Positions 1 through 32,600 of a stretch of 64,000 nt of DNA are shown in pieces. This DNA comes from Flavobacteriales bacterium (GTDB lineage Bacteria > Bacteroidota > Bacteroidia > Flavobacteriales_D > Crocinitomicaceae). Position 1 is the first letter of the stretch. Each line of letters begins with the position of its first letter. The notes beneath the pieces were generated by a model. The model was not told the origin of the DNA, ran no database searches, and saw only the letters and a list, made by a program, of their open reading frames with translations. Location of the stretch: contig CANITF010000011.1 in NCBI GenBank assembly GCA_947470515.1, positions 1 to 64,000 on the forward strand, in the 5' to 3' direction. The position numbers and the translations under genes are program-made.

Positions 1-900
1 ACAGCAAATGGAACGACGGTTACATCTTCCGTTCTCAATTTAGGAGCATTGATTCAAAATGCGAACAATGGCCAAGGAATTACACTTAATATAAATGGAA
101 GGGCAATCTCTAATTTCAATTTTGCAAATGCAACGGGTGTTTTTCAAAGTACTTTAAATTTAACCCCTGGATTAAATACTATTGTTTTGACTTCGGTTAA
201 TTCATGCGGAACAGATGTTGAAACGATTACCGTTAACTATCAAAATTGCATTGCGCCAGTTATTACAGTTGTTGCACCAACATCAAATGGAACAACAGTT
301 AGTTCAGCTAGTTTTAGTTTGAGTGCCTTGATTTTAAATTCCAACAACGGACAAGGAATTACACTTAATATAAATGGAAGATCAATCTCTAATTTCACCT
401 TTTCAAATGCAACGGGAGTTTTTCAAAGCACTTTAAATTTAACCCCTGGATTAAATACTATTGTTTTGACTTCGGTTAATTCATGTGGAACAGACACTGA
501 GACAATCACTATTAATTATGATAATTGTGTTCCTCCAGTAATTTCAATAACTAATCCAGCTGTAAATGGTACTACTGTTACTTCTCCGACGTATGGTTTT
601 AGTGCATTAATTGAACATACTAATAATGGTCAAGGAATAACGTTAACGCAAAATAACACAGCCATAACAGGGTTTAATTTTAATAATAACCTATCAACCA
701 TGCAGGCGTCAATAACCTTGATTCCAGGCTTGAATACGTTTGTTCTAAGTGCAACTAATTCTTGTGGGAATGATTCAAAAACTGCCACGATTTTCTATAA
801 AACGACCAAGCCAGGAGAAGTAAAACCAATCGACGAAAAAAATAAACCGGAAGTAATTCCACCAACTCCACCAAAAATTCAGGAAGGGAAAGGAGGATAA
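1..900 (+). CDS. Secreted protein with 93-residue Ig-like repeats (5' end missing)
   Basis: The frame is open from base 1, so this is the C-terminal part of a longer protein; the first in-window ATG at 49 lies inside a repeat and is not the start. Three tandem repeats are visible, with the NGTTV motif recurring at 7, 286 and 565, exactly 279 bp (93 residues) apart. Each carries NNGQGITL, a PGLNT motif and a Cys pair around NSCG and NC. The beta-rich, Ser/Thr/Asn-rich composition suggests an Ig-like sandwich, which is inference. Repeats 1 and 2 are nearly identical and the third is diverged. The C-terminus is a short Pro/Lys/Glu-rich tail rather than a recognisable T9SS sorting domain. The function is unknown and probably lies at the surface or in the periplasm. 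A strong hairpin terminator follows. Confidence 0.75.
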   Translation, partial: TANGTTVTSSVLNLGALIQNANNGQGITLNINGRAISNFNFANATGVFQSTLNLTPGLNTIVLTSVNSCGTDVETITVNYQNCIAPVITVVAPTSNGTTVSSASFSLSALILNSNNGQGITLNINGRSISNFTFSNATGVFQSTLNLTPGLNTIVLTSVNSCGTDTETITINYDNCVPPVISITNPAVNGTTVTSPTYGFSALIEHTNNGQGITLTQNNTAITGFNFNNNLSTMQASITLIPGLNTFVLSATNSCGNDSKTATIFYKTTKPGEVKPIDEKNKPEVIPPTPPKIQEGKGG

Positions 901-11418: not shown

Positions 11419-14400
11419 CTATCGGATCAAAGTAACATGTCCGTGATATATTTTTTCTTCTTCAGTTTGTAATATTCCAAATGTTATTTTCCATGTATAT
11501 ACGCCATCTTGACTAGGTGCGCCGTTGAAAGCATAAGAGCCATCCCAACCAATAGCTGGATTGTTAGATTCAAAAATCACTTCGCCCCACCTATTAAATA
11601 TATATAATGTATAAGTTCCTTTTTCATATCCAGAGGTTAATACAGGATTAAATTCATCATTTGTCCCATCATTATTCGGGGTAAATGAGTTAGGGACATA
11701 AAACAATAAATCTTCAAAAACAGTTATTGTATACATCATTGTGTCATAGCAGCCTACTTCATTGTATGCATATAAGGTTACCACAAAATCATCTGGAGCA
11801 CCTAAATATTCATGAATTGGATTGGTAGAAACACTCGTTGTACCATCATCAAACACCCACAAATAAGTGGTGGCATTAATTGAATAATTTTGAAATTCAA
11901 AAATAGGATTAGTGGTAGGCATCGTATCATTTAAAGCAGTAAAATTTGCAATTGGGTTTTCTAATACACATACCATATCCGTTTGCGTAGCAGTTAAAGA
12001 GCACCCAGCTAGATTCGTAACTGTAAGGGTAACGTCATAACATCCTGAATTGGGATATTGATGATCTACACTAACAGATTGAAAAGAACTTTCTCCATCA
12101 CCAAAATCCCACATCAGTGATGTTCCAGGTGCGTTTATAATGTCGTTAAAAGTTACATTCATTATTTCGCACCCAATAGGAGAAGAAACGTTAAAACCAA
12201 TTTCTGGTGATTCAGCCAAAACGACTTGATTTGACACAGAATTTACACACCCAGTAAGTTGATCGGTTCCTGTCAAAATTACAGTGTAGCTTCCAATTTG
12301 AGAATACACATGTGATGGGTCAGCCAAAAATGAACCACTGTTATCACCAAAATCCCAGCTATAATCGTTTGCTCCAAGTGATGTGTTTATAAAATTAACC
12401 GGAGTGATATTACAAAGTACTGCTGGGTTAGTAGAGAAACTTAAAACAGGTAAAGGATTGACAGTAACAAGGATAATAACGGAGGCACCATTGCATCCAG
12501 TAATATCAGCTTTTGCAGTGATAGTATATTCAACTATTTGGGGAACATTACTGGTATTAATTAAAACATCATTAATGAAAGATCCATTTTGAACAGTGAA
12601 AGTTTCACCTAGGACATTTATATTCTGCGCGGCGCTCCAAGTATATATGGAAGGAAGTGATGCAGATAAAGTAATATTGGTTGCTTCACCAGTACAAATT
12701 TCAACAGGACTATTGTTTATAATTGGTAAGGGATTAACAAAAATTGTCACAGAAAAAACAGGACTTGAGCAACCGTTCGCTAATGCACTCGCAACAACTG
12801 TATAATTTACTTGCTGGGTAACGTTCGTGTTGTTAATTAAAACGTCACCAATAATACTCGTTGTTTGAATAGATGTACTTTCACCCTGAACATTTGGATT
12901 GTTATCAGCAAACCAATTGAAGTTTGAAGGTGTATTCGCCTCTAAAAGCAAAAGCGGACTTGTTTCGCTACAAATAAAAACAGTGTCTGCGTTTATAAGT
13001 TGTAAAGGAGGCCGGACAATAACAGCGATTGTACTTGCCAAGCCAACGCAGTTTCCAACAAGTGACGTTGGAATGACACTATAAATAACAAGTTGATTTT
13101 GTGTGCTATTATTGATGAGTTGGTCAGTAATTACTCCACCTGTTTGAGATGAAGTATTTTCACCAGTTACATTCAAATTTTCAGTCGCTATCCACGTATA
13201 CGAAGATGATACATTCGCTTGTAATTGAACACTAACCAAACCACCACTGCATATTTCTATTGTTGAAATTCCGGTATATTCAACATTTGGCACTACTTGT
13301 ACAATAAAATTTACTTCGGGACCAACACATCCTTGTGGGGAGGATGCAGCCACTACATGGTAAGTAACATATTGCATAATAGCACTATTGTTAGTCAATG
13401 TATTATTTATTATTGCTGATGATTGCGGAATACTAACTTCTCCTGTTACATCCGGATTAGGTGTAGCATACCAAGAAAAAGTGGACGTCATGTTCGCAGA
13501 TAACAGTACATCTAATGGCACTGAGTTGCATATAACACTATTTGCAATTGGATTTATTGTAGGAGAAGGATTTATTGTAAAGGTAAATGTTTGAGGGTTT
13601 CCAGGGCAGCTGACCCCTCCAATGCTTGTATAAATAGGCGTTACTGTTACTGTGCTAACTATCGGACTCCCCGTTGTGTTTATTGCTGCAAATGGGGAGA
13701 TGTTTCCGGTACCATTATTACCTAATCCTATTAGTGTGTTATTGTTTGTCCAATTGTAACTTGTCGCTGTTCCGCTAAAAACAACTAGGGCTGAGGAACT
13801 TCCGTTGCAAACCTCTTCATCTGCTGGATCATTCATAATCGGAGTTGGATTTACTGTTATTATGAATGTTTCAGTATTTCCAGCGCAAACAACACCACCT
13901 AATTCAAAATAAGCTGTTACCGAAATTTGAGCGGTAATTTGATTGTTATTAGAGTTGTTTATTGCCACAAACGAAGGGATATCACCAGTTCCGCTAGCGA
14001 TTAATCCAATCGAAGGGTTGTTGTTCGTCCAGTTGTAATATGTACCTGTTCCTGTAAAAGAAATAGGAGAGGTTGGGGAATTATTACAAACAGTAATATC
14101 AACAGGGTCAGTAACGATTGAACTTGGGTTAACAGAAATAGTGAAAGCTTGTGCAGTTCCATAACAGGTTAATCCGCTGCTAGTATATTGAGGAGTAACA
14201 GTTACAGTAGCTGAAATTAATCCCGAAGTGTTATTTGTAGCGGTGAAAGAATTTATATCTCCAATACCATTTCCAAATAATCCGATAGAAGGAGTATTGT
14301 TTAACCATGTATATGCTGTTCCTGTTCCAGAAAAGTTGACTAATGCAGTTGATGCTCCATTACAGACAATTTGATTTGAAGAGGCATTAACAATTGGTGT

Positions 14401-17400
14401 TGGATTCACCGTGATTGTAAATGTTTGCGGTATACCAAGGCAAGAGGAATTATTTCCTGTAAATGATGGAGTAACAGTTATTGTAGCAGTAATTGGTACG
14501 TTTCCGTTATTAATCGCATTGAAAGAAGTAATATTCCCAATTCCATTTACTCCCAATCCAATTGATGGGTTATTATTTGTCCAGTTATAGTTTGTTCCGG
14601 TTCCAATGAAGTTTATCAGTGCAGAATTAGAACCATTGCATATTACAACATCAAGAGGGTCAACAACTGTAGGTGTAGGATTTATTGTTATTCCTATTGT
14701 TTGCGTTAATCCGCTGCAAGTAAGAGAAGCATTCAATAATTGAGGCGTAACAGTAATTGTTCCTGTGACAGGATTTGTTCCATTATTTAATCCCTGAAAT
14801 GCAGGGATATCACCAATTCCATTAGTCGACAATCCAATTGATGGTGTTGTGTTAGACCATGTATAGGATGTCCCTGTTCCTGTAAAAGTTAGAGGAGTAG
14901 TTGAAGCAGTATTGCAGATTGTTTGATCAGCAATATCGTTTACAATCGGTGTTGGATTGATTGTAATTGTAAAGCTTTGAGCTGCACCAGAGCAATTAGC
15001 ATTTCCACCAGAATAATCGGGCGTAGCTGTTATTGTTGCGGTAATTGGGAATGAAGTATTATTCTGAGCGGTGAAAGGCAAAATATTGCCAACACCATTA
15101 CTAGCAAGTCCTATACTTGGTGTGTTATTCACCCAATTATAACTTGTACTTGTACCTATAAAATTTGTGGCAGGAACAAGCGCCCCGTTACAAACAACAA
15201 GATCTTGCGGGTCAACAACGGATGGTGTTGGGTTTACAGTAATTGTCATTTGCTGGCTTAATCCAATGCATGATACTCCAAAATTTAAAAATGATGGAAT
15301 AAGTGTGATTGTTCCACTGATTGGATTAACCCCATTATTTTGACCAGTGAAAGTTGGAATTATATTTGTCCCACTTGAAATTAAACCTATTGCAGTATTT
15401 GAATTGTTCCAAGAATAACTCGTTCCAGTACCTGATAATACAACTTGAGTAGATGAAGCCGTATTACAAATAACCTGATCTATTGGGTCGTTTACTACTG
15501 GAGTTGGGTTAACAGTAATAGTGAAATTTTGTTGCGCTCCTGGACAAGTTATGCCTCCTGCGGTATATTCTGCAGTAACTGTAACGCCAGCGATAATTGG
15601 AGCTGCGGTATTATTTAATGCGTTGAATGCTGTAATGTTTCCAATACCATTTGTCCCTAAACCAATTATCGTATTATTATTTGTCCAAACATAACTTGTT
15701 CCTGTTCCTGCAATGTTCACAGCTTGTGTTGAACTATTATTACATACAACTTGGTCTGCTGGATCTTGAACGGTTGCAAAAGGATTTATTTTTATTTCAA
15801 AATCACTTATTGGTCCAAAACAACTTAAGCCCGCATTTGTATATTCTGGCGTAATTGTAACAAGTGATGTAATAATTGATGCGCCATTATTCGTTGTTGT
15901 AAATGCAGGAATTGTATTAATTCCAGAGGCTCCTAGTCCAATCGAAGTTGAACTATTATTCCAACTATAAGAAGTTCCCGTTCCATTTATTACAAGCGCA
16001 CTGGTTAAGAAACCTGTACAATAAGTGACATCTGAAATGGCTGTAACAACTGGGGTTGGATTGACGGTTATTGTAAAATCTTGCGCAGCTCCGGCACAAG
16101 TGACACTATTAAATAAATATTGTGGGACAACTGTAATTGTTGCAATAATAGGAGAGGAGCTTGCGTTTAGGGCAGAAAAAGGGGCAATAGAACCTGTCCC
16201 ATTCGTTGGTAAACCAATGGAAGCAGTATTATTTGTCCAATTATAAGATGTACCCGAACCAACGAACGTTACAAGGTCTGTTAAACTTGTATTACATTTT
16301 ACTTGATCCGATGGATTATTAACCGTAGGAGTCGGATTAACCGTAATTGTATAAACTAGAATTGGTCCAGAACATAACGCCTGACTTGAAGTTACTGCTT
16401 GTCCAAAAAATTGAATTGTTGCTGGAACCAATCCACTATTAGTTAAGTTAAAAGATGGAATTGTAGCCCCACCATTTTGAAGGTTTAACCCTGATATTGT
16501 TGAAGGAATTGTTGGGGCGGACCAAGAAATTGTTACACCAGGTGAGGAAGAAGTAATATTTACTACTGAAGAGGCAGACGCTGAACAAATAGTTTGGTTT
16601 GGAAGACTAAATTGAACAGTCGGCAAAGGATCAATGGTGAGTGAAAAAGTTTCTATTGTACCTGAACAAGTGAGATTTGCATTTAAATATTGTGGAGTTA
16701 CACTTATTTGTGCAATTAACGGATTCACCCCATTATTAATTCCAGTAAATCCTGTAATATTTCCCGTTCCACTCCCTATTAAACCAATTGCAGGTATAGT
16801 GTTTGTCCAGTTGTATGAAGTTCCTGTTCCAGTAAAGTTAACAGCAGCGACTTGGGAGCCTGCGCATATTACTTGGTCAATAGGATCATTTACCTGCGGA
16901 GTTGGATTAACAATAATTGTAACATTCTCCGTCGCACCAACGCATGTTGCTCCTGCATTTGAATAAGATGGTGTTACAGTAATGGTCCCTGAAATAGGAC
17001 TCGCGGTAACATTTGTCCCAGTAAAAAATGGAATGTTACCAGTACCAGTGCCTCCTAAATTAATAGCGGTGTTAGAATTACTCCATGAATATAATGTGCC
17101 AATTACATTTCCTGAAAAGTTTATCGCAGCGGTCAAAGAGTTATTACAAACAACTTGATCTACAGGATTCAAAACTGTTGGATTTGGGTTGACGGTTATG
17201 TTAAATGATTGCGGAGTTCCTGAACATGTTAGTCCGGCATTTAAATTACTTGGTGTAACAGTTACAGTTCCTGAAATAGCCGCATTTGTAGCATTGGTGG
17301 TTGTAAATGACGGGATATTTCCTGTTGATGCTGCCCCTAGTCCAATTGCAGAATTTGTATTGGTCCACGAATAAAGTGTTCCTGGAACACCAAAAGAACT

Positions 17401-20400
17401 TGTAAAGGTTACAGGACTAGAAATAGTACCTACACAATTTGCTTGATTATTAAGTGCATCAACCGTTGGAATAGGATTAACAATTATTGAAACATCTTGG
17501 GGTGAACCAACACATGAAATTCCAGCATTAATATATGATGGAGTAACTGTTATCAGAGCTATTGCAGCATTGTTTGTGTTGTTAGTTCCAGAAAAAGAAA
17601 CAATATTCCCCGTTCCACTTGCCCCTAAATTTATTCCTGTGTTTGTATTTGTCCACGAATAAAGTGTTCCATTGACTGCCCCATTAAAAATAATTGGGTT
17701 TGTTGGGGTATTGTTGCAAATTACTTGATCAGCAGGATTTAAAACAGTAGGGATTGGATTGACGGTAAAAAGAAATGTTTGAGTTGTGCCATTACAAACA
17801 GTTCCCCCGTTGTTGTAAACAGGTGTTACTATGATTGTTCCAATGATTGCTGAAGAAGTCAAATTAGTAGTTGTAAATGCAGGAATATCACCCGTGCCTT
17901 GAGCTGGCAAACCTATCCCTGTATTGCTATTTGTCCAAGAAAAAACGGTTCCTGGCACAGCAAAACTACTAGAAAAGACAATTGGTGTTGATGGAGATCC
18001 AACACAATTAGCTTGATTATTAATAGCATCCACAGTAGGGGTAGGATTCACGGTTATTGTAAGGTCTTGATTTAAACCTACACAAGTTGTTCCAGCATTT
18101 ACATAGGATGGTGAAATTATAATGGTTGATGTGATTGGATTTATTGTATTATTAGTGGCTGTGAACGAAGGGATGTTACCCGAACCATTCGCGCTTAGAT
18201 TTATAGATGGATTTGAATTAACCCAAGTGAACACAGTATTATTTACAGCACCAGAAAAGTTAATTGCAGAAACGGCAGTATTATTACAAATAACCTGATC
18301 AACTGGATTGAGAACAGTTGGTATAGGGTTTACAACCACAATAATTTGTTGAGAAACGCCATTACAAGAACCGACAATTGACTGAGGAATTACTGTATAA
18401 ACAACACTTTGAAAAGTACTTGTAGTATTCACTAAAATATCGGAAATAGTATTTTGAGATTGTGTTACCGTACTTTCCCCACCAACATTATTATTTATTG
18501 CAGCAGACCAAGAATAATTAGCGGAAACATTTGATGTTAATCCTAAATTTAAAGGTGATCCAGAACAAATTGTTAACCCATTTATATTTGTCATTACTGG
18601 CGATGGATTAACCGTGATAGTAATCGTTTGTGCAGACCCAGCACAGTTTCCTATTGCTGATGTGGGTGTTACCGAATACGTTACTGTTTGAGTGGTGGAT
18701 GAAGTATTAATCAATACATCTGCTATTGTTGTGCCCGATTGATTCGTTAAACTTTCTCCGCTAATAAATGGATTGTCAGACGCACTCCAAGTTAACGGAC
18801 TCGGAACATTGGTAGTAAGTGGTAAATTTACTGCTGCACCAGAACAAATTGTTTGAGAATTTGCGTTCGTCATAGAAACCGCAGGGACGACAGTAAGAGT
18901 AAAAGTTTGAGCATTTCCTACACACAGACCGCCAAGTGAAGTTGGCGTAATAGTGTAAGTAACAGTTTGAATACTGCTCGAAGTATTGATTAAAATGTCA
19001 TTAAGTGTTCCACTCGTTTGTGGCAAGAGACTTTCACCTGTAATGAATGGATTATCTGTCCCAACCCACGAAAAAGCACTTGGAACATTCGCACTAAGCG
19101 GGAAGTTAATTGCAGCCCCAGAGCAAATTGCTTGGTTATTCGTACTCGTCATATTTACAGCAGGAATCACTGAAATTGTTATTGTTTGTGGGGTGCCAAC
19201 GCACGAACCTATTTGTGTTGTTGGTGTAACTGTATAAGTCACTACTTGAATTCCCGCAGTAGGATTAATCAGTATGTTATTTAAAACTGAAGACGTTTGG
19301 CTTGTTAAGCTTTCTCCTGACACATTTGGATTATCTGAAGCAACCCATGAAAGACTGCTATTAATACTTGGAGTTAAAGGAATATTCACCGCAGTTCCTG
19401 AGCAAATAGTTTGAGTGGCACTACTCGTCAATGTTGGAGTTGGCACTACTGAAATTGTTACAGTTTGGGGAGTCCCAGGACAGTTTCCAACAATTGAAGT
19501 TGGTAAAACTGTATAGGTTACTAACTCAATTAACGATGATGAATTTGTCAGTGTATTGTTGATAGATAAACCCGTTTGATTCGTTAAACTTTCTCCTGAA
19601 ACATTTGGATTATCTGAAGCAATCCATGAATAAGTTGAAGTAATATTTGCTGAAAGAGGAATGTTAGTTTGTGTCCCAGAACAAATCGTTTGAGCATTGA
19701 TACTCGTCATTGAAATTGGTGGCGCAACAGTAACAACTAATGTTTGAGCCGGTCCATTACAAGAATTGGCATTTGATGTAAGTATTACAGTGTAATTAAC
19801 CGTCTGAATACTTGTTGATGTATTTGTTAAAACATCAGAAATTGGATTCCCAGATTGATTCGTTAAACTTTCTCCTAAAATAAACACATTATTGGCAGCC
19901 AACCAAGAATAACTTGATGGAATAGTGGAAACTAAAGTTTGGTTAACGGCTGTTCCTGAACAAATAGTTGCTGTTAGCGGGCTCGTTAATGATGGTGTTG
20001 GATTAACGGTAATAGTGTATATCAAAGGAGTTCCTGAACAACTATTTGCATTTGGTGTAACCGTGTAACTTAATGTAAAATCTGAATTTCCGGTGTTATT
20101 AATTGTACTAATAGGTATTTGACCAATTCCAGAAGTTGGATAACCTGTAACCGCAGATGGAATGCCCCCAGGATTTAACAAGGCCCAAGAAAAATCTCCT
20201 CCTGCAACACTATTGCTAAATGCAGTAAGCGCTGTTTGTGTGCCTCCACAAATTGTTTGATTTGGTGACAATGTTAAGACCGGGGAAGGTTTCACTGTTA
20301 TCACATAATTAAGAGGTAAACTTGCACAGCCATTTAAAGTTGCCACAACGCTGAACGTAACCGTTTGATTAACATTACTTGAATTTACAAGTGAAGAAAG

Positions 20401-23400
20401 AACAGGTAAATTACCATTACCACTAGAATTAAAACCACTAACACTTGAGCTACTTCCTACTGCTGACCAACTAAATGTCGCTCCGGCAATATTGCTTGTC
20501 CAAACAACAGCTGTTGTTGATGCGCCAGAACAAATTGTTTGTGACAATACAACATTCGTTACAGATGGTGTTGGATAAATTGTCGCGGTAAAGGCTCCAG
20601 CTGTGCCAATACACCCATTATAAATTGGCGTTACCGAGATCGTTCCAACTAAAGCAGAATTCGTATTATTACTTGGTGCTTGCCAAGGAAGAATTTGCCC
20701 AGTTCCATTTGCTGAAAGTCCGATTAGTGAATTGCTATTTGTCCAAGAAAAACTTGACCCTGCAGGGTTACTTGTAAAAGATACCGGGCTAATTTGTGAG
20801 CCAGGGCAAGCAGCAATATTTGCTAAACCTGTCATTATAGCGATTGGATTAACATACCCTGTTACAGATAACGGTAAACCAGAACAGCCACTTGAGATTG
20901 GTGTAACAAGATAAGTTACGGAACCGACAACCAATGAATTGTTGTTCAGAGTTTGCTGAATAGTAGTATTTGGAGCTACAGAGTTTGTTCCTCCAGTAAC
21001 ACCAGAACCATTAGTAGCAGTCCAAGTAAAAAGTGTTGAGGGTGTTGTGGAACTGAGTGAAATATTCAATTGTGCACCGCTACAAATAGTATCGTTGCTG
21101 TTAAAGACCGCAGTAGCTTGAGGTGCCGGATTCACAGTAATAGTATAATTAGCAGGTGCTCCAGGACATTGAGAGTTTCCTGATGTAGTAGCCGAAGCAA
21201 CAATAGAAATCGTTAATGGTGTTACTCCAAAATTTGTAAGGTTGGTATAAACTGGAATCGTGTTTGTCCCTGTTGTAGGCGAAAAATTTCCAATTCCACC
21301 AGGAACAGTTGCTGTCCAACTAAAAGTCACAGCAGGTGTAGCTGAACTTAAAGTTACTAATGAGCTGGACCCACCTGTGCAAAGCGACTGATTAGCTTGG
21401 GAGAACACAGTCACAGGAGCAGGATTTACCGTTATACTAAAAGGGATTGCAGTACCTTGGCATCCGTTTGCTGTTGGAGTGATTGTATAATTCAACGTAT
21501 ACGGCGCAACACCTCCATTATTAATAACACTCGCAGGTATTTGTCCATTTCCAGTAGTAGGAAAACCAGTTATCGTTCCTGGAACAGCGGCAGGATTTAA
21601 TAAAGCCCAAGCGAAAGTGCCTCCTAATACTGAGTTACTAAATGTTGTGAGTGAAGATGATGAACCACCACAAATCGTTTGATTTGGGGATATGGTTAAA
21701 ATAGGGGTTGGCCTAACAGTAATTACGTAACTAACAGGGACGCTATTGCAACCATTTGCAGTTGCTATTACTGTAAATGTAATTGTTTGATCAGTATTAC
21801 TGGTATTAATGAGGTTAGCATAAACGGGCAAGTTTCCGTTCCCATTGGCAGGAAACCCACTAATACTTGCACTACTTCCAACAGCAGTCCAACTAAAAGT
21901 AGCGCCAACTACTCCACTTGTCCAACTAACAGCTGTAGATGAAATACCTGAGCAAATAGTTTGTGCCAATACAACATTCGTTACAAATGGCGCAGGATAA
22001 ACAGAAATTGTAAAGTTTGAAGGTGTTCCACCGCAACTATTATATGTTGGCGTAACGATAAGATTTCCAGAAATTGTGGAATTTGTGTTGTTTACTGGCG
22101 CTTGCCATGGAGATATAGACCCGACACCATTTGAAGCTAGTCCTATTAGTGGATTGCTATTTGTCCATGCGAATGTGGAGCCAACAGGATTGCTTACAAA
22201 TGCGGCTGGGTTAATTTGAGCACCTGAACATACCGCAATATTGGTCAAACCTGTCATTATTGCGATTGGATTAACATAACCTGTTACAGATAGCGGTATA
22301 CCAGAACAGCCGCTTGAGATTGGTGTAACAAGATAAGATACCGAACCGACAACTAAAGAATTGTTGTTCAGAGTTTGCTGAATAGTAGTATTCGGAGCTA
22401 CTGAGTTTGTTCCTCCGGTAACACCTGAACCATTAGTAGCAGTCCAAGTAAAAAGTGTTGAAGGTGTTGTGGAACTGAGTGAAATGTTCAATTGTGCACC
22501 GTTACAAATAGTATCGTTGCTGTTAAATACCGCACTAGCTTGAGGTGCCGGATTCACAGTAATAGTATAATTAGCAGGTGCTCCAGGACATTGAGAGTTT
22601 CCTGATGTAGTAGCCGAAGCAACAATAGAAATCGTTAATGGCGTTGCCCCAAAATTTGTAAGATTGTTATAAACTGGAATCGTGTTTGTACCTGTTGTAG
22701 GCGAAAAATTTCCAATTCCACCAGGAACAGTTGCTGTCCAGCTAAAAGTTACAGCAGGTGTTGCTGAACTTAAAGTTACTAATGAACTAGACCCACCTGT
22801 GCAAAGCGACTGATTAGCTTGGGAGAACACAGTTACAGGAGCCGGATTTACCGTTATGCTAAAAGGGATTGCAGTGCCTTGGCATCCGTTTGCTGTTGGA
22901 GTTATTGTATAATTCAACGTATACGGTGCTACACCTCCATTATTAATAACACTCGCAGGTATTTGTCCATTTCCAGAAGTGGGGAAACCAGTTATCGTTC
23001 CTGGAACAGCGGCAGGATTTAATAAAACCCAAGCGAAAGTGCCTCCTAATACTGAGTTACTAAATGTTGTGAGTGACGTTGATGAACCACCGCAAATCGT
23101 TTGATTTGGAGAAATGGTTAAAATAGGAGTAGGCCTAACTGTAATTACATAATTGACCGGAATACTATTACAACCATTTGCAGTTGCTATTATTGTAAAT
23201 GTAATTGTTTGATCAGTATTACTGGTATTAATGAGGTTAGCATAAACGGGCAAGTTTCCGTTCCCATTGGCAGGAAACCCACTAATACTTGCACTACTTC
23301 CAACAGCAGTCCAACTAAAAGTAGCACCAACTACTCCGCTTGTCCAACTAACAGCTACAGATGAAACACCTGAGCAAATAGTTTGTGCCAATACAACATT

Positions 23401-26400
23401 CGTTACAAATGGTGCAGGATAAACAGAAATTGTAAAGTTTGAAGGTGTTCCAACACAACTATTATATGTTGGCGTAACGATAAGATTTCCAGAAATTGTC
23501 GAATTGGTATTGTTTACAGGCGCCTGCCATGGAGATATAGATCCGACACCATTTGCCGCTAGTCCTATTAGTGGGTTGCTATTTGTCCATGCGAATGTGG
23601 AGCCAACAGGATTGCTTACAAATGCGACTGGGTTAATTTGATCACCCGAACAGACAGCAATATTTGCTAAAGCATTAACAGTTGCTACTGGCTGAACAGT
23701 TATTTGTGTAGTTACAGGAGCACCAAAACAGCCATTTAATGAAGGTGTAATGGTATAAGAAATGGTTGCTGTTGCGTTCGAACTATTCACAATTGTAACT
23801 GGAAAAGTGTTGGCGGGGGAATTTACCGTTCCGCTTGCTGGAGCCGTTATTCCAGCAGGAAGGGGAGTCACAACTGCCCAAGAATAATTGGTGTTAGCAA
23901 GGGTAGAAGACAAGGAATAGTTGACTTGAGCACCTGAACAAATTGTAGAAACTAATGGCGTAACTGTTGCAACAGGAATAGGCTTAACATTAAGAGTAAC
24001 TGTTGAAACTGCTGCAACACAAGGCCCTGCAGGATCATTCGTGGTTAATGTTAATGTTATTAATCCTGTGAAACCAAGGGGTGGAGTATAAGTTGATGTA
24101 AGAGAAAATGGGTCCGAAAAAACTCCGCCACTATTAGATGTCCAAGTTGCACTAGATGCTGCTCCGCCAATTTGTCCATTAAGTGTTACAACGTCATTCA
24201 TGCAACTTCCATTAGGAAACGTCCCGGCATTTGCTGTTGCTTGAGGTTGAAAAGACAGTGGGGTTGTTGCAGAAACTTGAGGACAAGGAACTTGAGGTAT
24301 TGCCGATGTTAAAGTCAAGATTATTGTTCCAACATACGTTGCTGGAGGTGTATAAATAGCATTTAGCGCATTGGCATTAGGAGAAAAAGATCCTCCCGCA
24401 ACATTCGCAGACCATGTTCCTGTTATGACTCCTCCAGTTATTGTACCTGCCAATTGAACAGGACTTCCCATACACGTTGGAGTATATGTTCCAGGGGTTA
24501 CAACCACACTTTCTTGTACAATTATGTTTTGAGTGACAGTTGTAGATCCACAAGAATTAGTTGCTGTTAATGAATACGGAAATGTTCCACTTTCAAGATA
24601 TGTTATTGCTCCTGGATTTTGAGTTATCGCACCTATTGGGGCTGGTATACTTCCAATAGGAATGTTATTATTTGGATTGAAATTCCACACAAAAGATAAG
24701 GGAGCAGTGCTGTAACAAACATTGGAGGTTGACGCTGGAGTAAAACTTGAGCCTTCACAAATTGGAGCTGGTACAGGAAGAGAAACCATTGGTGGAGCCT
24801 GAATCGTTATTGTCTTTGAGAGTGTATTATTTGCGCACAAACCACTTCCTGGCGTACCATTTAAACCAACGACTAACTGTAAAGTATAAATACCGGGCCC
24901 AGTAAAATTAAAACTCGGCGATTGAAGTACACTTGTTAGAGGAGCAGCTGCAGGGCCACCTCCCGTTAAGCATGCTTGTGGATTTGATGGTGTGATTGTC
25001 CAATTATAAAAATTAGATAATGAACATTGTGGAATAGGAGAATTATTAATCGGTGATATTGTTAGGGGTGCGCAACCAGAGTTTATTGGTAATAAAAAAT
25101 CTGCAACTACAGGACTTGTAATACATATTGTTTGAACAATACTATCAATACCACATGTATTAGCAGTGTATAAAGTTATTGAGTACTGGCCAGGAGTATT
25201 AAATAAAATATTTAAACTATCCGTTCCTGGAGTCCAAAAAGAAGGAAATTGCAAAATCCCATTGTCAGACCCTAAACTGGTCCCATTTGTTAATGTAAAC
25301 CCTGAGTTAGGACTGATTGCCCAATACATAAAATAAGTGCTATCACAAGTCACAGAAGAAACATTTTGGCCAGCAACAGAAAGATCATTTACGCTTACTA
25401 ATTCATTTACGCAAGCAATATTCTGTGGCTGAACAGACATGTTTGGTTCAGTTGAATTACTCACATAGATCGGTCCGATAGATGAAAAAGTACTTCCACA
25501 AACATTATTCGCTATAACGGATGCAGCATAAGCATTAGGATACGTTAATGTTTGTCCACCAACACCAGAAATAACAGCCGATGTTCCACATGAAGTTGTG
25601 TTGAAATTATGTGAAATCGACGAAGAGAAAGGTGTTAAAAGGTTTGTAGCAGGACTTCCATCATTAAAAATTATCTGATAAAGCGTGTTAGGGACGTTAT
25701 TTGTTAATAGGGTGAAATCATAATCACTTGGATTACAGGAGTTTTGAGAATTTCCTGAAATGTTTATGGTTGGCGGTAAACCTAGAAAAACGCCATAATT
25801 TTGGGTTGACGTGCAACCATTATTTGGATTAGTAACCGTTATAGTAATGGTAAACAGATTGGTAACACTACCATTATAAACATGCGGTAGATTATTAATT
25901 GCTGCACCTGATGACGTAATATTCGTATTCGCAGAGCCATCACCCCAATTTATCGTAATCAATGAACCTGGGGTATAAGACGGAATATTAAAAGCGAATG
26001 GAATCGAACCCGTGTAAGGTGCTAGCGGGCTACAATATTTAAAATAAGTAAGACCATTTATTGTTATTGTAGATACAGCAGAATTCAATGTTCCAGCTGA
26101 TAGTGATGCATTTTGACCGCTGTTAGCAGTAACCACAACATCAACTTGAGAAGTTATTCCGCCACCTAAATTAAGCGTAGTGGTATAATTGCCTGGAGTT
26201 GAGTAAGTAACTAAATGTGGCCCTATTAAATTGGAATTAGTTGGGGTTCCACCAGTAAAAGCCCAATTATAGTTGGTGTTTGCTTGAGTTCCAGTTGACG
26301 TGCTTACATAATTTATTGTTTGCCCTTGACAAATGGTTATTACACTATTAATACTCGCAGGATTAGTAGAAAAACTAGCTGTTTGAGCAATGCTTCCAGA

Positions 26401-26487
26401 ACACATCCAAACACTAATAATCACTAACAGGTAATTTTTTAGTGGGTTATTAGTAAAAATATTTCGGCAAATACTCATATAGTGCAT
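11419..26487 (-). CDS. Giant PKD-like repeat surface protein, T9SS type B sorting domain
   Basis: 5022 residues in one uninterrupted frame. A signal peptide ends near SGSIAQ at about residue 35; Met4 is an equally good start. Residues about 36-840 hold PKD-type domains (INWGDGSA, IIFNDGSP). Residues about 840-4690 hold roughly 41 tandem modules by my count, averaging 94 residues. Each opens with a Cys motif (TICSG, VICNN, ANCVG) and ends with TITVNP-type strands, matching the PKD-like modules common in Bacteroidota. Classical PKD domains follow (YSWDFGDNSG, MWDFGDGESS), and then the gliding-motility/T9SS type B C-terminal domain (about 4925-5022: VPNSFTPNNDGTNDEF, IFNRWGEVIFES, HGHVTLIR). The protein is presumably exported by T9SS and held at or released from the surface, possibly as an adhesin. 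Five consecutive modules are duplicated almost identically at DNA level. The stop is TAG. Confidence 0.93.
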   Translation of the reverse strand: MHYMSICRNIFTNNPLKNYLLVIISVWMCSGSIAQTASFSTNPASINSVITICQGQTINYVSTSTGTQANTNYNWAFTGGTPTNSNLIGPHLVTYSTPGNYTTTLNLGGGITSQVDVVVTANSGQNASLSAGTLNSAVSTITINGLTYFKYCSPLAPYTGSIPFAFNIPSYTPGSLITINWGDGSANTNITSSGAAINNLPHVYNGSVTNLFTITITVTNPNNGCTSTQNYGVFLGLPPTINISGNSQNSCNPSDYDFTLLTNNVPNTLYQIIFNDGSPATNLLTPFSSSISHNFNTTSCGTSAVISGVGGQTLTYPNAYAASVIANNVCGSTFSSIGPIYVSNSTEPNMSVQPQNIACVNELVSVNDLSVAGQNVSSVTCDSTYFMYWAISPNSGFTLTNGTSLGSDNGILQFPSFWTPGTDSLNILFNTPGQYSITLYTANTCGIDSIVQTICITSPVVADFLLPINSGCAPLTISPINNSPIPQCSLSNFYNWTITPSNPQACLTGGGPAAAPLTSVLQSPSFNFTGPGIYTLQLVVGLNGTPGSGLCANNTLSKTITIQAPPMVSLPVPAPICEGSSFTPASTSNVCYSTAPLSFVWNFNPNNNIPIGSIPAPIGAITQNPGAITYLESGTFPYSLTATNSCGSTTVTQNIIVQESVVVTPGTYTPTCMGSPVQLAGTITGGVITGTWSANVAGGSFSPNANALNAIYTPPATYVGTIILTLTSAIPQVPCPQVSATTPLSFQPQATANAGTFPNGSCMNDVVTLNGQIGGAASSATWTSNSGGVFSDPFSLTSTYTPPLGFTGLITLTLTTNDPAGPCVAAVSTVTLNVKPIPVATVTPLVSTICSGAQVNYSLSSTLANTNYSWAVVTPLPAGITAPASGTVNSPANTFPVTIVNSSNATATISYTITPSLNGCFGAPVTTQITVQPVATVNALANIAVCSGDQINPVAFVSNPVGSTFAWTNSNPLIGLAANGVGSISPWQAPVNNTNSTISGNLIVTPTYNSCVGTPSNFTISVYPAPFVTNVVLAQTICSGVSSVAVSWTSGVVGATFSWTAVGSSASISGFPANGNGNLPVYANLINTSNTDQTITFTIIATANGCNSIPVNYVITVRPTPILTISPNQTICGGSSTSLTTFSNSVLGGTFAWVLLNPAAVPGTITGFPTSGNGQIPASVINNGGVAPYTLNYTITPTANGCQGTAIPFSITVNPAPVTVFSQANQSLCTGGSSSLVTLSSATPAVTFSWTATVPGGIGNFSPTTGTNTIPVYNNLTNFGATPLTISIVASATTSGNSQCPGAPANYTITVNPAPQASAVFNSNDTICNGAQLNISLSSTTPSTLFTWTATNGSGVTGGTNSVAPNTTIQQTLNNNSLVVGSVSYLVTPISSGCSGIPLSVTGYVNPIAIMTGLTNIAVCSGAQINPAAFVSNPVGSTFAWTNSNPLIGLASNGVGSISPWQAPVNNTNSTISGNLIVTPTYNSCGGTPSNFTISVYPAPFVTNVVLAQTICSGISSTAVSWTSGVVGATFSWTAVGSSASISGFPANGNGNLPVYANLINTSNTDQTITFTVIATANGCNSVPVSYVITVRPTPILTISPNQTICGGSSSSLTTFSNSVLGGTFAWALLNPAAVPGTITGFPTTGNGQIPASVINNGGVAPYTLNYTITPTANGCQGTAIPFSITVNPAPVTVFSQANQSLCTGGSSSLVTLSSATPAVTFSWTATVPGGIGNFSPTTGTNTIPVYTNLTNFGVTPLTISIVASATTSGNSQCPGAPANYTITVNPAPQATAVFNSNDTICSGAQLNISLSSTTPSTLFTWTATNGSGVTGGTNSVAPNTTIQQTLNNNSLVVGSVTYLVTPISSGCSGLPLSVTGYVNPIAIMTGLANIAACPGSQISPVSFTSNPAGSSFSWTNSNSLIGLSANGTGQILPWQAPSNNTNSALVGTISVTPIYNGCIGTAGAFTATIYPTPSVTNVVLSQTICSGASTTAVVWTSNIAGATFSWSAVGSSSSVSGFNSSGNGNLPVLSSLVNSSNVNQTVTFSVVATLNGCASLPLNYVITVKPSPVLTLSPNQTICGGTQTALTAFSNSVAGGDFSWALLNPGGIPSAVTGYPTSGIGQIPISTINNTGNSDFTLSYTVTPNANSCSGTPLIYTITVNPTPSLTSPLTATICSGTAVNQTLVSTIPSSYSWLAANNVFILGESLTNQSGNPISDVLTNTSTSIQTVNYTVILTSNANSCNGPAQTLVVTVAPPISMTSINAQTICSGTQTNIPLSANITSTYSWIASDNPNVSGESLTNQTGLSINNTLTNSSSLIELVTYTVLPTSIVGNCPGTPQTVTISVVPTPTLTSSATQTICSGTAVNIPLTPSINSSLSWVASDNPNVSGESLTSQTSSVLNNILINPTAGIQVVTYTVTPTTQIGSCVGTPQTITISVIPAVNMTSTNNQAICSGAAINFPLSANVPSAFSWVGTDNPFITGESLLPQTSGTLNDILINTSSSIQTVTYTITPTSLGGLCVGNAQTFTLTVVPAVSMTNANSQTICSGAAVNLPLTTNVPSPLTWSASDNPFISGESLTNQSGTTIADVLINTSSTTQTVTYSVTPTSAIGNCAGSAQTITITVNPSPVMTNINGLTICSGSPLNLGLTSNVSANYSWSAAINNNVGGESTVTQSQNTISDILVNTTSTFQSVVYTVIPQSIVGSCNGVSQQIIVVVNPIPTVLNPVDQVICNNTAVSAINFSGAVNNTVFTWVNSNPSINLSANGSGNIPSFTATNNTINPITSTIIISPSYVNAGTTCVGLNQDLTITVNPTPTVDAINNQANCVGSPSTPIVFSSSFAVPGTVFSWTNSNTGIGLPAQGTGDIPAFTTTNLTSSAIIGTIIVTPVYNNGGTVCNGTTQTFLFTVNPIPTVLNPADQVICNNTPTNPIIFNGAVNGTLYSWTNTNTGINLGASGTGNIVSFSGTNNTNNAAIALITVTPSYINAGISCVGSPQDVSIIVNPIPTVDALNNQANCVGTISSPVTFTSSFGVPGTLYSWTNTNSAIGLGAASTGNIPSFTTTNATNAAISGTVTVTPSNLNAGLTCSGTPQSFNITVNPNPTVLNPVDQVVCNNSLTAAINFSGNVIGTLYSWSNSNTAINLGGTGTGNIPFFTGTNVTASPISGTITVTPSYSNAGATCVGATENVTIIVNPTPQVNDPIDQVICAGSQVAAVNFTGTGTSYNWTNTIPAIGLIGSGTGNITGFTGINNGVNPLIAQISVTPQYLNANLTCSGTIETFSLTIDPLPTVQFSLPNQTICSASASSVVNITSSSPGVTISWSAPTIPSTISGLNLQNGGATIPSFNLTNSGLVPATIQFFGQAVTSSQALCSGPILVYTITVNPTPTVNNPSDQVKCNTSLTDLVTFVGSGTSYNWTNNTASIGLPTNGTGSIAPFSALNASSSPIIATITVVPQYLFNSVTCAGAAQDFTITVNPTPVVTAISDVTYCTGFLTSALVINGTGTSYSWNNSSTSIGLGASGINTIPAFTTTNNGASIITSLVTITPEYTNAGLSCFGPISDFEIKINPFATVQDPADQVVCNNSSTQAVNIAGTGTSYVWTNNNTIIGLGTNGIGNITAFNALNNTAAPIIAGVTVTAEYTAGGITCPGAQQNFTITVNPTPVVNDPIDQVICNTASSTQVVLSGTGTSYSWNNSNTAIGLISSGTNIIPTFTGQNNGVNPISGTITLIPSFLNFGVSCIGLSQQMTITVNPTPSVVDPQDLVVCNGALVPATNFIGTSTSYNWVNNTPSIGLASNGVGNILPFTAQNNTSFPITATITATPDYSGGNANCSGAAQSFTITINPTPIVNDIADQTICNTASTTPLTFTGTGTSYTWSNTTPSIGLSTNGIGDIPAFQGLNNGTNPVTGTITVTPQLLNASLTCSGLTQTIGITINPTPTVVDPLDVVICNGSNSALINFIGTGTNYNWTNNNPSIGLGVNGIGNITSFNAINNGNVPITATITVTPSFTGNNSSCLGIPQTFTITVNPTPIVNASSNQIVCNGASTALVNFSGTGTAYTWLNNTPSIGLFGNGIGDINSFTATNNTSGLISATVTVTPQYTSSGLTCYGTAQAFTISVNPSSIVTDPVDITVCNNSPTSPISFTGTGTYYNWTNNNPSIGLIASGTGDIPSFVAINNSNNNQITAQISVTAYFELGGVVCAGNTETFIITVNPTPIMNDPADEEVCNGSSSALVVFSGTATSYNWTNNNTLIGLGNNGTGNISPFAAINTTGSPIVSTVTVTPIYTSIGGVSCPGNPQTFTFTINPSPTINPIANSVICNSVPLDVLLSANMTSTFSWYATPNPDVTGEVSIPQSSAIINNTLTNNSAIMQYVTYHVVAASSPQGCVGPEVNFIVQVVPNVEYTGISTIEICSGGLVSVQLQANVSSSYTWIATENLNVTGENTSSQTGGVITDQLINNSTQNQLVIYSVIPTSLVGNCVGLASTIAVIVRPPLQLINADTVFICSETSPLLLLEANTPSNFNWFADNNPNVQGESTSIQTTSIIGDVLINNTNVTQQVNYTVVASALANGCSSPVFSVTIFVNPLPIINNSPVEICTGEATNITLSASLPSIYTWSAAQNINVLGETFTVQNGSFINDVLINTSNVPQIVEYTITAKADITGCNGASVIILVTVNPLPVLSFSTNPAVLCNITPVNFINTSLGANDYSWDFGDNSGSFLADPSHVYSQIGSYTVILTGTDQLTGCVNSVSNQVVLAESPEIGFNVSSPIGCEIMNVTFNDIINAPGTSLMWDFGDGESSFQSVSVDHQYPNSGCYDVTLTVTNLAGCSLTATQTDMVCVLENPIANFTALNDTMPTTNPIFEFQNYSINATTYLWVFDDGTTSVSTNPIHEYLGAPDDFVVTLYAYNEVGCYDTMMYTITVFEDLLFYVPNSFTPNNDGTNDEFNPVLTSGYEKGTYTLYIFNRWGEVIFESNNPAIGWDGSYAFNGAPSQDGVYTWKITFGILQTEEEKIYHGHVTLIR
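20827..22248 (-). repeat. 1422-bp internal tandem repeat, copy 2
   Basis: This copy encodes five PKD-like modules (474 residues), beginning near AVCSGAQINPAAF and ending near SVTGYVNPIAIMTG. It matches copy 1 with only scattered single-base differences by eye. A diverged third, shorter version continues below 20827, from AACPGSQISPVSF. Confidence 0.85.
22249..23670 (-). repeat. 1422-bp internal tandem repeat, copy 1
   Basis: This is the same five-module block as copy 2, offset by exactly 1422 bp; for example, the GTTCCTGGAACAGCGGCAGG stretch recurs at that spacing. The boundary was placed where similarity falls off near 23670. The unit length is a multiple of three, so the reading frame is kept. 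Confidence 0.85.
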
Positions 26488-26684: not shown

Positions 26685-29600
26685 TTAACGCAAACTATGT
26701 TTCACTATATAGGAAGTGGTGGCTCCATTTGAAACCTGTATATAGTACATTCCTGGGGCAGCTTCCATTTTTTCAATATGGAATACATTGCTGCCTTTTT
26801 CGACAAGCACTTCTTGACTGTATATAATCAATCCTCTTGAATCAAAAACAGAAATAGAGGAAGGGCCAGTTAAATCGTATGAATAAAAATCAAGGTAGAA
26901 ACTACCATTACTTGGGTTCGGATACGTAACCAATTTTGAAGTTATTGCTTGTGCGCCACAATTAACAGATGCGATATTGAAGGTTTCTGATGCACCATCA
27001 GTATCAAGTTGAGTCAATCTGTAATACGATATTCCATTTGAAACATCAGTATCTGTCACTGCGTATTCAATAATTGTTGTTGAATTTCCAGCAGCGCCCA
27101 ATGACTTTAAGTTGACCCAATTTAAACCATCTCGTGATTTCTCCACTACGAAATGACTTGTGTTATGTTCCGAAGCTGTTGACCATGTTACAGCGACTTG
27201 GTCTGTTCCTTGACAATTTGCTTGGAAAGAGATCAATTCGATAGGAAGCGGTGATCCCGTAATTCCAATTGTAAATGGCGAGAAAGATGTGATTCCTGTT
27301 TGCTCTACATAGAATGGTGAATTACTTTCATTCAGTACTCCTAATTCTTCCCAAACCGACCCATTATGGTGATTAACATTCATAAATCCTGGAGAATAAA
27401 CAAAACCATTTACTTCTTCACCAGCGTTCCATTGCATTTTTAAAGTAACGTTACTACCACCAGTCAATGCTTCGCTTACCATCCATGTTCTGTTTACTGC
27501 TTGTCCACTTGTTGGCACACCACCTTCAACCCCTGTTGAAGACACATAATCGTAAACGCGCAAACTAAATTCATCAGATGTTCCACTGTTGCTTAGTGTT
27601 GCAGGGTTGTAAGCACTATTTCCAACAGGGAAAACTACTGCTGAACTTGAAACATTTCGATTCAAGACACCCACCCCAGAAGTGCGCACATAACTTGTGG
27701 CTGAGCCACCATTTACTGTATTGGAAGCCATGTTTAAATTACTTGCTTGCAAATCAATAATACCATTTGTAAGGTTTAATGCACTGTTTATTGTAAGATT
27801 GTTCGATAATAAAACAATACCGGAGGCTTTATTGATGGTCATTATATTAAAGGTTGCTCCTGCTGTGTTTGATATGGTTTGGTCAGATGCCGTTGCTCCG
27901 TTTAATAGTAGCGTTCCAGAAAATGAATAGTTTGCTGTGTTTCCAGCACATTCTAAATCTCCACCAATTGCAATGGTATTTGCATTGTCTGTAAAGGTTG
28001 CGGCACCCGCATTGGCGTTTAATTTCAAATCATCGACTAACGTTAAGTTTGTATTTGAAGCTAATGTTAAAGAGCCTGTTTTTAAATCGCTCCCCGAAGT
28101 AATTAATGTGCCGTTTACTACAGACACATTCATCAATAAACTACCAGCCTTAATTGTCCTCCCATTGCCTATTAATTGTTGAGCACTGCTTCCATAAGCT
28201 TGTAGGTTCACATAGGTTATATAATTCGTGCTGTATAAAATAGCACCCGAAATGGTGATGTTTTTCTTGAAGAATACTGTACTGTAGGTTGAATCTGCAT
28301 CCACGCTTGCTGAATTAAACAAATATTCACCTTCGATGTGGAAGCCACCAGTAACGCGCTTAATTCCATCTCCTGTTAATGTTAAATTACCATATTGGCT
28401 GTTTGATGAAGTTGGAATAGCAATGTCTTGATTTGAACTTGAACCATAGATTACTGTTGAAGTTGCGTCAATATTATTTAAAATGGGGGTAGTTGCATTA
28501 TTCAAAATTAATGTGGATGTTCCTTCCAAGCTATCCACTGTACCTACAAATGAATAGGTGTCAGGAATGGTAACAATAACACCATTACGAATACGAATCG
28601 ATGAATTTGATCCTGAAACTGACCAGTTTGCAGCAATCGATGCTGTAGATCTGTTTTGAACAATAAAAGTTTGATTTGTACTAGAGAAGTTTAAAGGATT
28701 TGCCCCAGTTCCATCAGTGTTTGTCCACCATGTTGATAATTGATCCAAACTTCCAATGGTATCAGTATAAAATACAGTTGGAGTGAAGTTGATTGGAGTA
28801 AACGTTACATCGTCAACACCTAAACCATCTCGAGAACCGCTCGTACCAGCCGTGTTGTGGACCCAACGAACCCAAACGCTTGATCCATCTGCTACTCCAG
28901 AAGGTATAAAGATAGTATCTCTTACTAATTGGCGATATGCAGCAGCATTTCCATCACGAGCAGTATTAGTAGAAACTGTTCCATAATCAGGTGAGTGGAA
29001 ATTCAAGATGCTTGAACTTCCCCAAGTACCTGCAGCTAAACTTGGAGCCGAAGTACTATATTCAAATTTCAGTTTATCACGTGCTGGAGCTCCTCCGTTT
29101 GCTGCGTTTCCTGTTAGTCCTCTTCTCCATTGTTCTCCGTAATATTCAACAATCATCGCATTGAAGCTTGCACCTATTGAGTTTTTAACTTTGAATCCTA
29201 CCTTAACATCAGATAAGCCAGAAGTAATGGAAGAGCCTAAAGCTCTATCGGTAGATATTCCAGATCCAAATGCATACGAATCACCTGTAGAAAGTGAGCC
29301 GTCTCCTGCTGAATAAACTAAGTTTTGGTTGCTTCCTGTTTCTAGATAATAAGCTCCTTTGGAAACTTCAGTTGATGTTCCCGAAGTAACAAGCTCATTG
29401 AAGTTTGTGGCAGTACTAGCAACATCGATTGTAGATAATATAACAGCATCATCATTGTCTGTAATGCTTACGTTTTGAGAACTTGTTCCACCTAAATACA
29501 ATCCAGCAGAAGGATTAGAGATATTAATTGAAGCTACTTCTGTTCCTTCATTCAAGTTGTCATCAACAAGTGTAAAGGTAGAGGTTCCAGTTGAGGCTCC

Positions 29601-32600
29601 AGCTAAAATTTTGATTTGAACGCCTGATAAAACACCATCACCATCAACCAACGAATAATCTCCTGCCGTTAACGAAGTTCCTGCTACCGTAACATCTACT
29701 GTTTCATCAAAGGCTAAAGTACTTGTTGAAGTTACTGTTACTGTAATAGATGTTGTTCCAACTTCGGTTCCACTTGCTGCAGATACACTCAGGTTTACGT
29801 TCGGCAATAATGAGCCATCTAATATAATATATCTGTTATACGCGTTTGCTGTGCTAAGTGTAATTAAACGATTACTGTAGTTTCCTGCACTAAGGCCGCT
29901 TTTTAAACGAACATAAATTGTAGTTGAAGCAACAGTGCCAGCTGCTGGTGTTAAAGAAAGTGTATTAACGAAAGTTCCTCCTGATGTTAAACAAATTTCA
30001 AAATCGGAATCAACGTTTAATGCTATCGAATTTGCACTTAAATTAGTTCCGGAAACTGTAAAAGTTTGTTCAGCTGAAGGACCTGATCCAAGAATATAGG
30101 TGAATCCGTTTAATGGAGATGCATTAATAGAAATATTTGGAGCAGTGGCTGAAATTGGAGCACATGCCACACCTTTAATAATAGTACCTGCAGCTGCAGT
30201 ATACAATGTTAAATTGCTTGCCGTTGTAATGTTAATTGTAGTATTAAAACCTACATTGTCTGTTAATTTAACAATGGAGTTTGCTGTATTAGCTCCATTT
30301 CCTGTTGACACATACAATTCAGAGCCAATCCCAATGTTTTTAGCTGTTAACCCAAAACCTCCTCCTGCAAATGTATAAGACCCGTTTGCAGTCCATGTGC
30401 CAGAAACAAGCGAGTATTTTTCAATTTTAGTAGTATACAAACAATATAATACATCGAATGCAGCACCATTGCTTCCTGAAGAAACAAATGCGAAATCTTG
30501 AAGGTTATTTGTGGAAGCTGTTAATCCATTTAATAAGGTAAAAGTTCCACCGTTTGCAGCAGAAATAGTTCCAATAGCAATTGTAGAACCTTGCGCATAC
30601 ATTGTTGCTCCATATGCCTTGACACCGCGAATGTTTAATGCTGGACTTGGGCTAGAACTTCCATTTGTATAGAAACCACTTTGGTCGCCAATGTACCAGG
30701 ATGTATTATTCAAGGTAGATGCGCAGCGTGTTTGATTTCCTGAAGCGCCCGTGTAGGTTGTTGCTTTATTGAACGTCTTGCTATTGTTGTAGGTAATAAC
30801 TGCACGTGTTAATAATGTATTCGCATTTGAAGCTGTGTTGGTTGAGTTATGGCCAGTAAAAGTTATCAAAGTACCATCGTTGCTATTTGCCAAATATAAA
30901 GTAGAAGTTGCACTTCCTGAAAAACGCATTCCATTAACGGCATCTGTTCCGTTAACCACAGTGGTACTAATTGGAGAAGCTTGAAATGCACTTGTTCCAA
31001 TTTCAATAACACTTGCCGTTGTATTCGAGGCACTTGCTGCAGCAACTACTGCAGCCAAATTTCCTAATGTAAATGGCGCAACTAGCACAGAGCCTGAATT
31101 TGAAACAGTGATTGACGGGGAGACTCCTCCTCCCGAAATGGTAATATTTTCGGTGTAGGTTGCTGCACTTAGGCCTGTTTTTAAACGCACATATACAGTT
31201 TGAGCAGTTAATGTTGAACTTGTATACGGATATGTGATTGAAGCACTAAATGAACTATTGTTGGTCGAAACCTCGTAATTGGTAGAGCCAGTAATTGTGA
31301 TGTTTGAAGGGAAGCCTGTTAAGTTATCACCTGTAAACGTAAACGATTGTGAAGTAGAAGGCCCGGCTCCTACTATATATGAGTAGCCAGAAAGATTTAC
31401 TGAAGAAGAAGTAATTAGTGCAACAGGTGTAACTGTCCCAGATAATGCAATCGTTGCAGAAGTAGCCCCACCACCTTCAATGGTTACGTTTGATGGTCCG
31501 TATGTAGTAGCTGGCAAACTTGCAATAAGACGGACATACACGGTTTGGGCCCCTAATGTACCTGAAGAATATGCATAGGTTCTAGAAGAAAAGAAACTGA
31601 CGTTATCGGTAGAAATTTCGAAGTTGGTTGGAGCAGTAACTGTAATATTTGCAGGGAAACCAGTAAGGTTAGCACCAGAAAAGGTAAATGATTGCGAACT
31701 TGATGGTCCAGTTCCAGTATAATTTAACCCGGTTATGGAAGCAACACTTGGAGTAAGAGCTGGAGGAGAAGTAACAGCACCATCAGCAGTGAATGAAGTT
31801 GTTGTGCCCCCACCTGAAATATTAATTGTTTCAGGTGAATATGTCGCTGCAGATAAACCTGCTTTTAATCTAACCCATAAGATGTTAGAAGCAATTGTCC
31901 CCGTTCCTGTGTATGGCATGGTAGCCGAGGCACCAAATCCTATTGTTGAACTTGTTGTAGAAACCTCAAAATTGGTGGAAGCAGTTATTGTGATATCTCC
32001 ACCTCCTGAAGTTAAGTTACCTGCTGTTAATGTAATGGATGACCCAGTAGATGGTCCTGAACCTTGAACATATGTTAATCCAGTAAGATTTCCCGAAGGA
32101 GTAATGGAAGCAACAGCAGTAGCTGTAACTGTCCCAGATAATGCAACCGTTGCAGAAGTAGCTCCACCACCTTCAATGGTTACGTTTGATGGTCCGTATG
32201 AAGTAGCAGGTAAGCTCGATATTAGACGGGCATATGCGGTTTGGGCTCCTAATGTCCCTGAAGAATATGCATAGGTTATAGAAGAAAAGAAACTGACGTT
32301 GTCGGCAGAAACTTCGAAGTTGGTTGGAGCAGTAACCGTAATATTTGCTGGGAAACCAGTTAAGTTAGCACCAGAAAAGGTAAATGATTGCGAACTTGAA
32401 GGGCCAGTTCCAGTATAATTTAAACCGGTTATGGAAGCAACACTTGGCGTAAGAGTTGGAGGAGAAGTAACACTACCTGCAGCAGTGAATGAAGCTGTTG
32501 TGCCCCCACCTGAAATATCAATTGTTTCAACTGAATATGTCGCTGCAGATAAACCTGCTTTTAATCTAACCCATAAAGTGTTAGAAGCAATTGTTCCCGT

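Follow-up and report, generated by a model that had tools for sequence, protein, structure and literature searches.

The window, by which we mean the whole 64,000-nucleotide stretch of DNA analyzed here, contains a giant surface-protein gene at 11419..26487 (-) that encodes 5022 aa. An N-terminal region (aa 1-833) is followed by 42 contiguous PKD-like modules (PF19406; aa 834-4755), mostly 91-98 aa in length, by canonical PKD domains close to the C-terminus, and by a T9SS type B sorting domain (TIGR04131 / CHU_C) at 11422..11697 (-). Whole-protein profile searches were done in halves, and the two halves scored 499 and 373 bits against PF19406 (cut-off 25). The protein scored 49.7 bits against TIGR04131 (cut-off 35) and 53.8 bits against PF13585 (cut-off 27), and thus carries the C-terminal domain, above the curated cut-off, by which T9SS type B cargo is recognized. 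The draft genome (2.99 Mb in 58 contigs) encodes SprA (2436 bits), and has 17 PorP/SprF matches over cut-off, about 16 of them full and one a fragment where its contig stops. Type B cargo matches over cut-off number 38. Because the sorting domain occurs in a genome that also encodes SprA and PorP/SprF, the giant protein is expected to be exported by the T9SS. The giant gene's own contig has no PorP/SprF profile match. The array itself looks composite: modules 1-14 match the type found in the related genes L043 and L045-L047, while modules 15-42 (12223..20007 (-), aa 2161-4755) best match another type, that of the array in L048. These matches could reflect a shuffling of domains between two lineages of genes.

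The array opens with a single module, "0" (23698..23988 (-), aa 834-930), which is placed identically in the orthologues and lies ahead of repeated modules that we call A-E. Two adjacent blocks of 1422 bp follow one another in frame at exactly 20827-22248 and 22249-23670. Each corresponds to five PKD-like modules (A-E, 91+95+96+98+94 aa), in agreement with the initial annotation, which had described an in-frame, five-module tandem duplication inside a giant surface protein. Its boundaries are exact in the phase of the crossover described below and do not follow the domains: in domain phase the two copies extend over 20854-23697, with copy 1 (A1-E1, aa 931-1404) at 22276..23697 (-) and copy 2 (A2-E2, aa 1405-1878) at 20854..22275 (-). 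The blocks had also been called near-identical, which is too strong. They differ at 82 of 1422 sites without a single indel (94.2% nucleotide identity), and 96% of residues (about 455 of 474, in the phase of the initial annotation) are the same. Third codon positions hold 61 of the 82 differences. In domain phase, Ks between copies 1 and 2 was 0.198 and Ka 0.027 (Nei-Gojobori), indicating purifying selection on the protein since the duplication. The longest exact run common to the two copies is 132 bp, and another is 106 bp. As had been noted, the flanks are diverged: sequences 1422 bp apart are only 51% identical beyond one end of the blocks, and about 58-73% and then about 30% identical beyond the other. 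The shorter, more diverged third version anticipated below position 20827 is likewise present. It is a partial copy, A3-B3-C3, at 20008..20853 (-) (aa 1879-2160); the 20096-20826 segment, which covers A-B-C only, has 69% nucleotide identity, and Ks exceeds 1 against both copy 1 and copy 2.

Other repeats lie elsewhere in the window. The adjoining gene at 26685-34757, which encodes a 2690-aa T9SS type A protein, has a tandem duplication of its own at 31410-32831 (-), with a 232-aa lag, 91.2% nucleotide identity, Ks 0.163 and Ka 0.069. By these values it is similar in age to the pair in the giant gene and under weaker constraint. An in-frame tandem repeat of 2.1 copies of a 279-bp unit (79% identity) is found at 46-638 (+) in an open reading frame (1-900) cut by the window start. 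Finally, two neighbouring TonB-dependent receptor genes of similar size, at 4602-6923 and 7002-9335 (+), are possibly the result of a gene duplication.

The five-module unit was modelled confidently (mean pLDDT 91) as five consecutive beta-sandwich domains; with a pTM of 0.59, their relative orientation is uncertain. The best fold matches of the model are filament fragments of GhpA, the grappling-hook protein of Aureispira sp. CCB-QB1 (PDB 9flp, 9flv, 9flw and others), which like the protein described here is giant and secreted by the T9SS. Among solved structures, GhpA is also the only one related in sequence to the array (E=1.3e-27); it has a weak match at the C-terminal sorting region as well, and is the closest structural relative of the giant protein. 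However, GhpA is 5898 aa long and heptameric, and the N-terminal 830 aa of the 5022-aa window protein had no match to GhpA at E<=1. We did not accept membership in the GhpA family, since homology does not extend over the whole length. The ixotrophy system to which GhpA belongs also includes a T6SS. A profile search of the genome for its component VipB/TssC (PF05943) gave no match; this was the one component searched, and the T6SS proteins of Bacteroidota are divergent. In Flavobacterium, the mobile adhesins of the SprB type resemble the window protein in being very large, repeat-rich and exported by the T9SS to the surface. A PorP/SprF partner directly beside the cargo gene is common at SprB-type loci, but there is none beside the giant gene. 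From its domains, we infer that the giant protein is a surface filament or adhesin stalk. Its Ig-like chain may be extended and hold the N-terminal region off the cell, as the GhpA stalk does. A comparable filament measures about 180 nm for 49 domains, or about 3.7 nm per domain (PMC13319060), and by analogy we estimate a length of about 150 nm for the 42 modules and of about 18 nm for one five-module unit.

Relatives of the gene place the duplication in a longer history. The uninterrupted genes L043, L045, L046 and L047 have 31 modules each in the order 0-ABCDE-ABCDE-ABCDE-ABCD plus further modules, with later units increasingly diverged. The presence of several diverged A-E copies in these genes indicates that the five-module order predates the event in the window, and the period is, on this comparison, ancestral. 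Orthologues of the contig's genes (first 84 kb) were not found near the relatives' genes, save for a weak domain match, and orthology was therefore judged from sequence and from the order of the modules. L041 and L043, from metagenome records that bear the perhaps mistaken label Chryseobacterium gleum, belong to a gene family also present in Crocinitomicaceae records.

Module A behaves differently from the rest of the unit. Among L045-L047, modules B-E at the same position in different species share 71-92% of nucleotides, versus 55-67% for copies within a gene. For module A the corresponding values are 69-78% between species and 72-98% within a gene. Since module A is as similar within a gene as between species, it appears to have been exchanged between units, clearly in L047, where A1 and A2 are 98% identical past the first 33 nt, and probably in L045 and L046. 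Module-A trees of L045 and L046, taken alone as proof of conversion, were dropped because their support was too weak.

The junction between the two copies in the window also falls in module A, and it is chimeric. The first 26 nt of A2 resemble the third copy and the remainder resembles the first. Judged by the sites that distinguish A1 from A3, A2 is A3-like by 37:1 over the 90 nt that end the preceding module and by 11:1 in the first 26 nt of module A, for a total of 48:2 before a 17-nt run; in the 257 nt after this run it is A1-like by 79:5. The crossover scar in A2 lies at 22233..22249 (-), with copy-3-like sequence upstream and copy-1-like sequence downstream, and the 17 nt that match it are identical in A1 (23655-23671) and A3 (20811-20827). 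The high-identity tract covers one full period and terminates at the equivalent position of the next A module. The chimeric junction supports recombination as the cause of the duplication. The sister lineage L041 provides a view of the earlier arrangement. Its first module A resembles A1 of the window (14:4), and its second resembles A3 of the window over both A1 (12:2) and A2 (9:2). In a tree of the A-B-C block, the three window copies form one clade (98/98) within which copies 1 and 2 group together (100/100). From these comparisons we infer that the third copy descends from the ancestral second copy; module A (76 aa in L041) carries most of the weight in this call, and single-module trees are weakly supported.

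Taken with the relatives, these data make it very probable that unequal crossover, with A1 and the next unit's module A as partners, inserted an extra five-domain unit into a T9SS-exported stalk. Homologous recombination would have joined the A module of the first unit to that of the following unit within the 17-nt stretch identical in both, and the product would have been one added A-E unit in this lineage. Copies 1 and 2 would then have drifted under purifying selection. The resulting stalk should be five Ig-like domains longer, with its reach altered and its function kept, as gain of a unit would leave the N-terminus and the C-terminal export signal untouched. The array presumably remains capable of recombination; separate events are seen in relatives of the same gene family.

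The tract of high identity could also reflect gene conversion, in which two old units were already present and one overwrote the other, in either direction, with no change in unit number. There is precedent for conversion between unit positions in the family, as the modules B-E of the exchanged units in L047 share only 58-67% of nucleotides, and several ancestral unit copies are present in relatives. However, the identity tract is exactly one period long, its two ends fall at an identical position within module A, and the three window copies form one clade. Furthermore, conversion of a pre-existing second unit does not predict that the second A of L041 should match the third A of the window and not its second. 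The chimeric A2 and this match in L041 together favour unequal crossover, and we regard conversion as an improbable account of the pair. Still less credible is an assembly artefact, either one unit doubled in silico or two strain variants joined in tandem. The initial annotation had raised this concern, and it has some basis: tandem-repeat assembly errors are well documented (PMC6868369), and the 58-contig draft is perhaps metagenome-derived like those of its named relatives. At this locus, however, the copies differ by 82 scattered and mostly synonymous changes, their longest exact shared run of 132 bp can be resolved with ordinary reads, the chimeric junction involves a separate third copy, the contiguous assemblies of four relatives show the same unit order, and the gene sits well within an 86-kb contig.

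The concern does apply to the relatives, whose assemblies break within the array. In L040, L041 and L042 alike, the contig stops no more than about 100 codons from where the second unit begins, which is consistent with breaks caused by the repeat. The last 150 bp of the L040 contig had no second occurrence in its genome, and the break at its second A is therefore only suggestive. L048 (G012:C38) has two exact 1637-bp stretches located 835 codons apart (modules 7-12 versus 16-21) and separated by three unlike modules. In the sister genome G013, the contig ends 147 bp into this repeat. The identity in L048 is either very recent copying or assembler-made.

The initial annotation had further suggested that the duplication was recent and that unit number might vary between strains. 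The synonymous divergence of the aligned copies can be set against the nucleotide difference between genomes. G012 and G013, which belong to the same genus, share 97.4% of nucleotides over 5.4 kb and 96.4% over 4.2 kb. The Ks of about 0.20 exceeds this divergence (2.6-3.6%), indicating that the duplication is not very recent. Unless rates differ, it is likely older than a typical species in the genus, as judged from these alignments. The 132-bp run is longer than expected for randomly placed differences (P 0.018), a hint of later partial conversion between copies 1 and 2. Such conversion could have lowered Ks, and the age is accordingly uncertain. DNA matches in relatives had only 62-74% identity. 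A very recent, strain-variable switch in copy number that tunes adhesin length would be compatible with unequal crossover, and recombination could take place between in-frame units that are 94% identical and share exact runs of 132 and 106 bp. Repeat number differs by strain in Yersinia ruckeri Ilm and varies within a colony in S. aureus SasG (PMC6868369). We nonetheless consider such a switch rather unlikely here: with Ks above the divergence of G012 and G013, the copy pair does not by itself predict variation among strains of one species.

The unequal crossover that we favour has parallels in other repeat proteins. Ilm and SasG are likewise adhesin arrays, of Ig-like domains or repeats, that change length by gain or loss of repeats, but Ilm repeats are single and identical in DNA, whereas the unit described here consists of five different domains and is 6% diverged. 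Domain repeats often expand by several domains at once in the middle of an array, as in nebulin, which expands by seven (PMC1553488). The giant gene resembles nebulin in that several domains were duplicated together, inside the repeat region and with a higher-order period. Unlike nebulin, the case is bacterial and intron-free, the scar maps to 17 nt, and unit order is conserved in relatives. In the giant genes of Apilactobacillus, intragenic recombination drives diversity, but recent conversion from one giant gene to another was not seen (PMC12863079). A literature search for giant PKD proteins of the T9SS that contain tandem repeats gave no result. Set against these systems, the duplication is a clear but ordinary example of length change in a stalk protein, of a kind already known.

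The relatives carry a practical message. Draft genomes of the genus often break such genes and may mis-size them, so domain counts of giant adhesins taken from metagenome assemblies need long-read checks. For the gene studied here, the crossover by which a giant bacterial surface protein grew longer can be mapped exactly, and relatives allow the arrangement that preceded it to be deduced. Both this crossover and the exchanges in relatives fall in module A, and we tentatively suggest, from these few events and at odds well short of even, that exchanges between units of a phase-locked five-domain super-repeat could take place preferentially through module A, with A homogenized within each species while modules B-E stay individual. 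If so, the length of the stalk would shift in steps of five domains.
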